Positions 12,186 to 18,842 of a stretch of 33,077 nucleotides of DNA are shown here, in pieces (within the stretch, counting starts at the first letter, position 1; the number at the start of each line of letters is the position of its first letter). Under the pieces are notes generated by a model that was not told the origin of the DNA, did no database searches, and saw only the letters and a list, made by a program, of their open reading frames with translations. Position numbers and translations under genes: made by a program. The stretch lies in NCBI GenBank assembly GCA_025464895.1, contig JAODMG010000103.1, positions 1 through 33,077 on the forward strand, in the 5' to 3' direction. Source of the DNA: Microbacteriaceae bacterium. Lineage in GTDB: Bacteria > Actinomycetota > Actinomycetes > Actinomycetales > Microbacteriaceae.

Positions 12186-13078
12186 GTATCGGACAGCGTT
12201 CCGGGGCGGCTGCGACGCCGGCGTTCGACGCGTCGGCATCCGCGACGACTCCGGCCGAGGCGAAAGAGCTCGCCATGGTCGGTGGCGTCAAGCCGCGGCG
12301 CTACGGATCGTGGTATGTCGCGGAGCACCGCATCCGTTCGATGCGGTCCTACCTGCAGACCATCGTTGCGACGAGCATCGGCAACCCGCTGGTCTACCTG
12401 TTCGCTCTCGGGGTCGGGCTGGCCAGCCTGATCGACACGAATCTCGGCCCAACCGGATTCAACGGCATCAGCTATCTCGCCTTCGTCGCGCCCGCTTTGC
12501 TCTGCACGGCCGCGGTCACGGTCGCGGCAGAGGAGTCGACCTATCCGATGATGATGGGGTTCAAGTGGAATCCGATCTTCTACGGCATGAATGCCGCGCC
12601 GATCACCGGCAACCAGATCGTCAACGGAATGGTGATCTCGATCCTGGCGCGGATCATCCCGACCTGCGCGATCTACTTCGTGGTCATGCTGCTCTTCGGC
12701 GCGGTCGCGTCGCCGTGGGGCGCGCTCGGCATCCTGGTCGCGTCGCTCACCGGCATCTCCGTCGGACTGGTGATCATGTCGTACACCTCGCGCATCGAGG
12801 AGGACAAAGGCCAGATGGCGATGATCATGCGCTTCGGGATCACGCCGATGTTCCTGTTCTCCGGCACCTTCTTCTCGCTCGGCCAGATGCCGATCTACCT
12901 GCAATGGATCGGATGGATCTCGCCGCTCTGGCATGGAACGGAGCTCGGCCGGGTGCTGAGCTACGGCGCGTCTGAGCCGACCTGGCTGACCGTGCTGCAC
13001 ATCGCCTATCCACTCGCCCTCTGCTGGTTCGGCTGGAAAGCGACCCAGCGGGTCGTCACGAGGAGGCTGAACAAGTGA
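12182..13078 (+). CDS. ABC-2 type transporter permease
   Basis: Multi-TM protein overlapping the ATPase stop by 4 nt; ISYLAFVAPALLCTAAV, FLFSGTFFSLGQMPIYLQWIGWISPLWHGTELGR. Confidence 0.87.
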   Translation: MSIGQRSGAAATPAFDASASATTPAEAKELAMVGGVKPRRYGSWYVAEHRIRSMRSYLQTIVATSIGNPLVYLFALGVGLASLIDTNLGPTGFNGISYLAFVAPALLCTAAVTVAAEESTYPMMMGFKWNPIFYGMNAAPITGNQIVNGMVISILARIIPTCAIYFVVMLLFGAVASPWGALGILVASLTGISVGLVIMSYTSRIEEDKGQMAMIMRFGITPMFLFSGTFFSLGQMPIYLQWIGWISPLWHGTELGRVLSYGASEPTWLTVLHIAYPLALCWFGWKATQRVVTRRLNK

Positions 13079-14051: not shown

Positions 14052-14522
14052 TCATGGCGCGAGCGAGCGGATGATGCGAGCCGTGGCCAGGGCCGCCTCC
14101 GCCGCCTCCGCACCCTTGTCTTCCTTCGACCCTGGAAGTCCGGCACGGTCGATCCCCTGCTGTTCGTCGTCCAGCGTGAGCAGGCCGAAACCGACCGGCT
14201 TGCCGGTGTCCAGGGCGACCCTGGTGAGGCCGTCCGTCGCGGCCGACGAGACGTACTCGAAGTGCGGGGTGCCCCCGCGGATGATGACGCCGAGGGCGAC
14301 AACGGCATCCGCCCCGGCGTCCAGCGCGGCCTTGCTCACGACGGGAAGCTCGAAGCTGCCTGGTACCCGGATCTCGGTGACCTCGGCTCCCGACTCGGTG
14401 AGTACCCTGCGCGCTCCGGAGAGGAGTCCTTCGCTGATCTCCTCGTGCCAGCTGCCGGCGACGATGGTCACCTTGAGTCCGGTTCCGTCCGTAGCGATCT
14501 CCGGTGCTCCTGCGCCGCTCAT
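14052..14522 (-). CDS. ribH: 6,7-dimethyl-8-ribityllumazine synthase
   Basis: [57 protein letters not shown]. Confidence 0.95.
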
Positions 14523-15913
14523 AGTTCCTGCTCTCTTCTGGTCTGACTGGCGATCCTGTCGGCGGCTCGCGCCTGGTCGGCTCGCGCTTGGCTGGCCCTC
14601 TCTTGACTGGCCCTCTTTTGACTGGCCCTCTCTTGACTGGCCCTCTTTTGACTGGCACCGACTGCGTCGTCAAGAGTGACATCGTCGGGAAGTATGTGCC
14701 CCATCCTGTCCCGCTTGGCCTCGAGGTAGCGCTCGTTGAAGCTGCCGACGCCGACGACGAGCGGCACCTGTTCCGTCACCGTGATGCCCCGCTCGCGCAA
14801 CTGGCGGAGCTTGTCCGGGTTGTTGGTGATGATGCGGGCCGCCGAGATGCCGAGATCCTCGAGAATCGCGACGGCGGCGCCGTAGTCGCGTCCGTCGGCG
14901 GGGAAGCCGAGCGCGATGTTCGCATCGAGCGTGTCCAGGCCCTCCTCCTGCAGGCGGTAGGCCTTGAGTTTGTTGATCAGCCCGATGCCGCGTCCCTCGT
15001 GACCGCGCATGTAGATGACGATGCCGCCCTCGGACTGGATCTGGTCGAGCGCGGCATCCAACTGGGGTCCGCACTCGCACTTCAGGGAGCCGAACACCTC
15101 ACCGGTCAGGCATTCCGAGTGCACCCGGAGGAGGGTGCCGTTGCTCGGGGTGCCCGAGATCACGGCGAGGTGGTCCGCGCCGGTCATCCGGTCCCGGTAT
15201 GCGCGAAAACGGAACTCACCGTGCGTGGTCGGCACTGTCGTCTCGACCTCGAAGATCACCCTGGAGCTCTCCGGGATGGGGACCACCGGAACGTCAGCGT
15301 CCAAATGCGTCGCCTGCAGATAGATGATGAGAGCCTCGATCGTGATCACCGCGATGTTCTCGCGCTGGCCGAACTTGATCAGGCCAGGCAGGCGCATCAT
15401 CTCGCCGTCGTCGTCGACGATCTCGGAGATGGCGCCGACCGGGGTGAGGCCGGCGAGCTTCATCAGGTCGACGGCGGCCTCGGTGTGGCCGTCGCGCTCG
15501 CGCACCCCACCGTTTGCCGCGCGCAGCGGCAGGATGTGGCCCGGCCGGTTGAGACTCGACGGCGTCGAATCGATGTCGGCCAGAACGCGCAGGGTGTGGG
15601 CGCGATCGGCGGCGCTGATGCCGGTGCTGAGGCGGTCGGCGGCATCCACGGACACCGTGTAGTTGGTTCCGCGCGGGTCTTCGTTGTTCGCCACCATGAG
15701 CGGCAAGTCGAGCCGGTCGGCGAGTTTGTTGGTCATCGGGGCGCAGATGAAGCCGGAGGAGTGCCGCACCATCCAGGCGATCCATTCCTGGCTCGCCAAC
15801 TGTGCTGAGATGACGACGTCACCCTCGTTCTCGCGGCTCTCGTTGTCGACCACGATGATCGGTCTTCCCGCGCGCAGTTCGTCGAGGGCGGTTGGGATGT
15901 CGGCGAGGCTCAT
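14519..15913 (-). CDS. ribBA: Bifunctional 3,4-dihydroxy-2-butanone-4-phosphate synthase / GTP cyclohydrolase II
   Basis: [34 protein letters not shown]..., [41 protein letters not shown]; start at 15913 rather than 16126. Confidence 0.95.
14592..14651. repeat. 15-bp tandem repeat (four copies, CTGGCCCTCTCTTGA / CTGGCCCTCTTTTGA alternating) in the 3' end of ribBA
   Basis: Direct reading; encodes [10 protein letters not shown] pentapeptides, with diverged flanking units ASQAR and ADQAR. Confidence 0.95.
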
Positions 15914-17639: not shown

Positions 17640-17738
17640 CCGGTTCCTCAGTCTCTGGTCGAGACGAGCTCCGGGGGACTCTGCAACCTGCGCAGAACCC
17701 GCGACCGAATCATCGACAGCGTCGATGCATCAGTCGCG

Positions 17739-17888
17739 CGTGCTTCCTTCCATCCGGACTGAGGAATCTTGCGATTCCATAACCGTCGGTCCCGGAATTT
17801 CACCAGGTCAGCCACGGCACCGGTCTCCCGATGCCATAGGTCGCGGACTATAACCGCCGGTTCGGATTTTCACCGACCCCGGAGCACG
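17739..17888 (-). ncRNA. FMN riboswitch (RFN element)
   Basis: Minus strand reads CGTGCTCCGGGGTCGGTGAAAATCCGAACCGGCGGTTATAGTCCGCGACC...GACCGGTG...CTGGTGAAATTCCGGGACCGACGGTTATGG...CAGTCCGGATGGAAGGAAGCACG; conserved RFN blocks plus closing P1 CGTGCT/AGCACG; upstream of ribD. Confidence 0.96.
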
Positions 17889-17999
17889 TTCTTGCATTAC
17901 GAGTCTATCCAACGCCGTCTGGGCTCGGATATTCCCGCCGTCGCATCCCGTAACGGTGGCTCGCGGTCCCGTCCGGCGCCCATCAGTCGGCCGCCACAC

Positions 18000-18084
18000 C
18001 GCTCAAATGCAGGACCACAGCCACGAAACGACAGGATTCACGCGGATCTTTACCAAACGAACGCTCCGCTCCTGCATTTGAGCG
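18000..18084. repeat. Intergenic element bounded by a perfect 15-bp inverted repeat CGCTCAAATGCAGGA...TCCTGCATTTGAGCG
   Basis: Arms 18000-18014 and 18070-18084, 55-bp interior. Confidence 0.85.
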
Positions 18085-18119
18085 TCGAGGACCACGATGC
18101 ACGTGCGCGCGAGGCCGCG

Positions 18120-18842
18120 CTACCGGAGGCCGAGGACGGCGGGCAGCTCGCCCAGGCCGTGGATCACCGGGACACCGGATGCCGCAGCCGACGCGAGCTC
18201 GTCGGGGGAGGCCGCGCGGCTCCGGTCCAGCCACACGCCGAGGAGTCCGGCGGAGGCCGCACCGATCGCATCCGTCTGCAGCCGGTCGCCGACGTATGCG
18301 GCCTCGGATGGCGGCACACCGAAGACGCGGCAGGCGTGCTCGAAGATCCGAGCATCCGGCTTCGCATATCCGAGCTGGCCGGAGGCGATGACGTTCTCGA
18401 TCCGCGGCGCCAGGCCGATGCGTTCGATCTTGGCCAGTTGGAAGGCGAGGTCGCCGTTCGTGATGATGCCGATCCGCAGCGGAGCGATCGCGTCCAGGCA
18501 GGCGATGGTGTCATCGTGGAGGGTCCAGGCCCGCATGTATTCCTGGAAGTATGAGTCGAACCAGGCATCCGCTTCGTGATCTTCGAGGAGCACGCCGTAC
18601 TCCTCGGCGAAGAGGCGCGCCCGTTCGCGTCGCTGCTGGGCAAAGGTCAACTCACCACTGAGATAGCGGTGATAGTGCACCTCTTCCAGCTCCCGCCAGC
18701 GGTGCGCGGCGGCTCGTGCGTCGGCGGCCGCGATGGCTCCGCCGAGTGAGCGCCGGTACTGCGTAATCCCGCTCACCACCGACTCGCGGTGCGCGAACAG
18801 GGTGTCGTCAAGGTCGAACAGCACTACCTTCACAGCGGCCAT
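18120..18842 (-). CDS. HAD family hydrolase
   Basis: MAAVKVVLFDLDDTLFAHRE, GIITNGDLAFQLAKIERIG, YAKPDARIFEHAC, AAYVGDRLQTDAIGA. Confidence 0.9.
   Translation of the reverse strand: MAAVKVVLFDLDDTLFAHRESVVSGITQYRRSLGGAIAAADARAAAHRWRELEEVHYHRYLSGELTFAQQRRERARLFAEEYGVLLEDHEADAWFDSYFQEYMRAWTLHDDTIACLDAIAPLRIGIITNGDLAFQLAKIERIGLAPRIENVIASGQLGYAKPDARIFEHACRVFGVPPSEAAYVGDRLQTDAIGAASAGLLGVWLDRSRAASPDELASAAASGVPVIHGLGELPAVLGLR

Follow-up and report, generated by a model that had tools for sequence, protein, structure and literature searches.

Results

The element and its surroundings

The window, that is the whole stretch of 33,077 nucleotides that was analysed, contains a HAD-like hydrolase gene on the minus strand (18120-18842; codon-usage gene call, HAD name from an earlier reading), whose 3' end points toward a short non-coding element, and an FMN riboswitch that belongs to the rib operon lying downstream, also on the minus strand (17737-17890; Rfam RF00050, 77.5 bits). 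The gene call and the Rfam match agree with the initial annotation, which had placed the element between these two features. The outer arm end lies about 35 bp past the stop codon of the HAD gene, and the element is about 110 bp upstream of the riboswitch. Its left arm CGCTCAAATGCAGGA (18000-18014, plus strand) and its right arm TCCTGCATTTGAGCG (18070-18084, plus strand) are, as first reported, exact reverse complements of 15 bp, separated by an interior of 55 bp (18015-18069) whose length is fixed. They form the only perfect inverted pair of at least 13 bp with a span of 50-130 in the whole window, and dinucleotide shuffles give 0.24 13-mer pairs and 0.0 15-mer pairs of that span per window. 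Each arm includes a family core that is conserved across genera, AAATGCAGGA at 18005-18014 and TCCTGCATTT at 18070-18079 (both plus strand), and the core-to-core length of 75 bp assigns the copy to the 74-77 class described below. A recurrent central motif, GGATTC, is found at 18034-18039 (plus strand), near the middle of the element (centre 18042).

The whole element folds with the arms as a stem (DNA z about -5, RNA z -4.7 to -6.8), and its interior holds no continuous hairpin, in agreement with the initial annotation. When folded alone, three of four arm sequences do no better than shuffles, and the window right arm folds weakly (z -2.05); by inspection, the GTAG/CGTC tag is absent from the arm foot. 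Neither a U-tract terminator, whose absence had already been noted, nor a sigma-70 promoter was found at the element. The statement that the element contains no ORF holds in part: mechanical ORFs do overlap it (for example 17983-18234, minus strand, 83 aa), but not one passes the codon-usage caller. The FMN riboswitch is the only Rfam match over the gathering score in the window, and the element has none. Elsewhere in the window, the C-terminal tail of a predicted RibBA-like protein is a degenerate repeat (14519-14640).

Dispersed copies in the host genome

Searching the host assembly, a draft that is 87% complete, with the window element as DNA query retrieved a full-length relative on contig C114 and arms elsewhere. 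The arm CTCAAATGCAGGA, with one mismatch allowed, occurs 37 times in this genome (reversed control, 0), and these arms are nearly all paired. Eighteen copies were read, with a core of 75 or 87-88 bp, and a covariance model finds the same 18 and no others in the genome. The distance between outer arm ends is 93-94 bp in 16 of them and 81 bp in the remaining two, the window copy and the C114 copy; the latter (C114:658-738), just upstream of the nuclease gene described below, is the closest host copy to the window element in length and sequence. Conservation among the host copies decreases from the arms (97.5% identical) to the inner part of the repeat (87%) and to the interior (55.7%), and covariation is slight, with two-sided changes at 2 of 20 pairs. 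The option of a structured RNA, raised by the initial annotation, was rejected in view of the blank Rfam result and this slight covariation.

In two genera, a DUF6421 gene has a copy at one and the same place within its coding sequence (L042:1571-1658, host contig C41; L065:1506-1593, G028), and each of the two copies has the outer arms specific to its own genome. This corresponds either to an old in-frame insertion or to coincident targeting.

Spread in the family and constraint on arms and length

A pattern search of 400 genomes of the family, carried out after the covariance-model search, detected the core layout AAATGCAGGA-N45-75-TCCTGCATTT in 33 genomes belonging to 16 of 85 genera (control pattern, 0). 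The proposal that copies be sought in the host and in its relatives has thus yielded the 18 host copies and this wider distribution. Among the genomes compared, the host genus is represented by the host alone. The number of exact copies per genome reaches a maximum of 43, and it spans 2 to 43 inside one genus. The inner core is common to all, and the next 3-5 outer bases vary by genome (GCTC, TTCCG, CACGG, TCAG, GTCGA, GTACC, TGACC) and are still inverted-repeated, a complementarity across genomes that does not distinguish a hairpin from two equal protein sites.

Ninety-one copies were collected with core lengths of 64-95 bp allowed, and they fall into two classes, 74-77 bp (n=61) and 86-88 bp (n=30), with none of any other length in that range; the two classes are apart by about one helical turn. 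A single 68-bp pair, outside the set of 91, occurs in genome G180. In genome G126, the interiors of ten copies are near random (0.43 versus 0.387 for shuffled sequences), yet all ten copies are 76 bp long. GATTC or GAATC is found at most 9 bp from the centre in 26 of 82 copies, in several genomes, and in none when an off-centre window of the same size is considered. The combination of fixed arms, helical spacing and drifting interiors would be required of a pair of sites that a single protein complex recognises in duplex DNA, but not of an RNA loop.

Two sets of outside matches were set aside: three matches of the strict host-arm pattern in unrelated taxa, whose interiors differ and which were taken as chance, and eight matches in viral contigs, mostly in AT-richer DNA without the layout of the AAATGCAGGA family. 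The viral contig L140 (IMGVR_UViG_3300021254_000027) carries at 12297-12386 tandem hairpins, AAATGCAGGATGGG..CCCATCCTGCA and AAATGCAGGATTGCG..CGCAATCCTGCATTT, that resemble the element core, but their loops are short. At two loci of G028 (L076 and L079), 88-bp elements alternate with a palindromic repeat CTGGTTGAGGAGCGCCCGAGCG in tandem arrays with periods of ~290-310 bp. In three or more species of genus g58, a conserved copy is located in the start region of a YeiH-like transporter gene (L121:2859-2935, L122:3172-3248, L137:2797-2873), where the ATG start could come from the arm AAATGCAGGA.

Genomic context of the copies

According to a simple codon-usage caller, whose gene calls make these counts approximate, 38 of the 91 copies are located between convergent genes, 36 between tandem genes and 5 between divergent genes, 9 are inside ORFs and 3 are unassigned. 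The 3' end of a gene adjoins 82 of the 91 copies, at a median distance of 87.5 bp. The description of the element as a REP/MITE-like dispersed one is borne out by these many intergenic copies, situated mostly 3' of genes. Macrodomain-type sites were considered and rejected, the first ten copies listed for each of G126, G387 and G269 being evenly spread.

The enzymes first suggested as partners were not recovered. The RAYT/Y1 (HUH) transposase PF01797, the predicted REP-associated tyrosine transposase, is absent from all 30 genomes searched (the host and 29 related genomes), and control genomes matched; no IS with ends matching the arms was seen in the 87% complete host assembly. Target-site duplications of 3-9 bp show no clear excess over shuffled flank pairs, and no pair of an insertion and its empty site was found among the genomes compared. 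The single missing copy that was compared, in G342, resembles a partial deletion rather than a clean excision.

A flanked nuclease gene

BLAST comparison of the genes beside the copies singled out one protein, with an AbiEi-like N-terminus and a DUF559/REase_MTES_1575 C-terminus. DUF559 is present in 34 of 40 genomes searched, and the flanks of the DUF559 genes of these 40 genomes were scanned. Most element-rich genomes have a single doubly flanked nuclease gene; in 14 such genomes, copies lie on both sides of exactly one DUF559 gene and beside none of its paralogues. The host nuclease gene is divided between contigs C114 and C5, and each of its outer sides has an element; the first scan saw one side only at the contig end, and the N-terminal half, directly preceded by a copy, was recovered on C114 by an alignment search. 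Further flanked nucleases occur in G190, G219, G185, G366 and G331, and in G074 and G009 with arm variants; in G342, the gene is flanked on one side only. The upstream flanking copy precedes the nuclease start by 60-125 bp.

The gene order dapD-nuclease-gltA, the usual setting of the flanked gene, is shared by 12 genomes from 5 genera, and no unflanked paralogue examined holds this position. No AbiEii toxin or other second toxin gene was found at this locus, the neighbours being dapD and gltA. At the same locus in G129 (L225, contig C3), the nuclease gene is seemingly broken by a frameshift, and one intact flanking element remains. In the protein tree, the flanked nucleases cluster (5 label changes versus a shuffled mean of 13.6).

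The nuclease-type residues D, E-x-D, H and R-D are invariant. PF04480 scores over its Pfam cut-off and PF18741 below it; AbiEi_4 reaches 23.9 bits for a cut-off of 25 in one member, and the PADLOC AbiEi models match down to E 1e-7. The profile relatives of the nuclease domain in the PDB include 3hrl and 3r3p, a mobile intron protein (E 2.6e-5) which we take to be I-Bth0305I. The protein possesses a VSR-like nuclease domain with intact catalytic-type residues, as do EDxHD/VSR-like homing endonuclease elements.

Fourteen exact copies each are present in G057 and G276, which have no detectable nuclease, and 11 in G040, whose only nuclease has other arms. Either the upkeep of the copies does not strictly depend on the nuclease, or the latter was lost recently. 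In none of these three genomes are the copies accompanied by a flanked nuclease with such arms, which sets a limit to the proposed partnership and leaves some probability to readings by host function.

Paralogues with their own palindromes

An arm-blind search, allowing up to 2 mismatches, detected palindromes that match each other upstream and downstream of 40 of 94 nuclease genes and in 0 of 564 shuffles; the match is perfect for 28 of the 94 and for none of 564 shuffled flanks, the 94 loci being not all independent because several genomes per genus are included in places. About half of the DUF559 genes have no matched flanks. Matched flanks occur at six loci outside the family as well, and two Tsukamurella plasmid homologues lack them. 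A second host paralogue, on C20, has another palindrome, AAATTCAGGA...TCCTGAATTT, at its flanks. The AAATTCAGGA family comprises 10 exact copies in the host, one of them beside the C20 nuclease, and 1-12 in six other genomes. Its copies can be clustered (11 in 57 kb at G028:C12:152583-209730; 7 in 30 kb at G036:C1:1074682-1104610), in contrast with the even spread of the AAATGCAGGA family.

Arm similarity increases with nuclease identity, from a mean score of 5.2 below 36% identity to 12.9 above 60%, and a Mantel test of arm similarity versus protein identity gives 37/2000 with a correlation that is weak overall (0.135). Common descent accounts for part of this trend.

Discussion

In the model we favour, to which we give a probability of roughly 60% including its mechanism, the window element belongs to a family of dispersed, non-coding palindromic repeats, and this family is paired, as DNA partner, with a dedicated wHTH-DUF559/VSR-like nuclease in an analogue of the REPIN-RAYT system. 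The partnership between the element and the nuclease is well supported, and we infer that the nuclease also mobilises the element. The enzyme would be chromosomal and usually single-copy, with an AbiEi-like winged helix at its N-terminus and a DUF559/VSR-like domain at its C-terminus. The winged helices of two protomers would bind the two inverted arms from the same side of the DNA helix, and the nuclease would make a cut or a nick close to the centre of the element, after which repair or replication would copy the elements into new, tolerated intergenic sites. The copy upstream of the nuclease start would serve autoregulation. The window copy would be a passenger 3' of the HAD gene, having at most a side effect on the end of that transcript. 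This scheme of dimer binding, central cutting, copying by repair and autoregulation is drawn by analogy from the 3r3p and 3hrl matches and from published systems: the EDxHD homing endonuclease family acts as a dimer on a target of ~60 bp (PMC3943268), AbiEi antitoxins bind inverted repeats and autoregulate (PMC7319586), and REPINs have arms in inverted orientation around a spacer, the length of which is of importance, together with a linked enzyme (PMC3116915).

The same constraint on the arms and on their helical spacing in nearly all copies, with drifting interiors, would also be expected of an operator, regulon or nucleoid site, for which the wHTH-nuclease would be a regulator or a DNA-bridging protein and the copies would be functional for the host and not mobilised. 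The position of the flanking copy before the nuclease start, the affinity of AbiEi domains for inverted repeats (PMC7319586) and the persistence of copies in G057 and G276 without nuclease agree with this explanation. However, most copies are 3' of genes or between convergent ones and not at promoters (38 convergent, 5 divergent), the nuclease-type residues are invariant, and the presence of the element is patchy, with copy numbers that vary widely within one genus; we regard it as unlikely while taking it seriously. The adjacency to gene 3' ends and the strong RNA folds could instead designate a 3' hairpin terminator or mRNA stabiliser ending convergent transcripts, the nuclease gene being merely another terminator-bounded gene. 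Such a function is quite improbable, for there is no U-tract, a terminator needs neither a fixed length of 75/87 nor an invariant 10-bp core, and it leaves unexplained both the one doubly flanked nuclease paralogue per genome and the different matched palindromes of the other paralogues.

The junction of a nuclease domain with an AbiEi-type antitoxin-like domain brings to mind protected or addiction-type sites, where the nuclease would cut DNA, the palindromes would be silenced or antidote sites and the gene would be hard to lose. This is very improbable, given that a second toxin gene is absent from the dapD-gltA locus and that nuclease loss seems tolerated (G057, G276). Finally, the element is, like an IS-derived MITE, short, non-coding and bounded by perfect terminal inverted repeats, and it is dispersed and about 80-95 bp long; the autonomous copy of a DDE transposon, with GCTCAAATGCAGGA as its expected ends, could lie elsewhere or be missing from an assembly that is 87% complete. 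To this origin we give hardly any credence: target duplications are absent and no parent IS was seen, and the host arms, within the limits of that same draft, are nearly all in close pairs (81-94 bp) and not around a transposase ORF. Furthermore, the terminal bases vary by genome around a fixed inner core, and in DDE transposons the terminal bases are normally the most conserved.

Beyond the nuclease-element pair favoured here, one may ask whether a new class of mobile or selfish repeats has been encountered, in which AbiEi-wHTH/VSR-like nucleases would each own and copy a cognate palindrome, bound by a dimer and cut mid-element, with two spacings one helical turn apart, an origin independent of RAYTs several co-evolving pairs per genome, and a wide distribution in the class. 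We put forward this generalisation tentatively, at slightly worse than even odds. The DUF559/AbiEi-type proteins, to which current annotation gives the name 'AbiEi family antitoxin domain' or DUF559, recur in these genomes with no assigned role; the cognate palindromes provide a DNA target that can be tested and hint at what their role might be. The paralogues with different arms form a natural collection of nuclease/site specificities, and the flanks of a given gene allow its specificity to be predicted. Among the open-access papers searched, none connects DUF559/VSR-like proteins with dispersed palindromes.

Among known systems, the AbiEi antitoxin of type IV toxin-antitoxin pairs has an N-terminal winged helix, to which that of the nuclease appears to correspond, and binds inverted repeats (PMC7319586), whereas here this domain is fused to a nuclease domain, the sites are dispersed and no AbiEii toxin adjoins the gene at the shared dapD-gltA locus. 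The EDxHD homing endonuclease I-Bth0305I belongs by profile match to the same nuclease superfamily and is bound as a dimer to a long target of ~60 bp (PMC3943268), to which the long element and the dimer postulated here would correspond; it differs in that our gene is free-standing and chromosomal, has a wHTH, is flanked by whole target-like elements and is accompanied by dispersed copies, no intron or intein being seen. Compared with REPIN/RAYT, the enzyme is a wHTH-DUF559/VSR-like nuclease instead of an HUH Y1 transposase, the main host arm is not a self-hairpin and lacks the GTAG/CGTC tag, and exact-arm copies number up to 43 here versus hundreds. The resemblance nevertheless extends to the inverted doublet with conserved arms and a less conserved spacer of fixed length (71 or 110 bp in REPINs; Bertels and Rainey 2011, PMC3116915), to copies that are dispersed and mostly extragenic, to a dedicated enzyme gene with repeat copies beside it, and to several enzyme/repeat pairs per genome whose sequences diverge together. 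This comparison suggests that evolution may have arrived twice at the REPIN-RAYT way of life, by way of unrelated enzymes.
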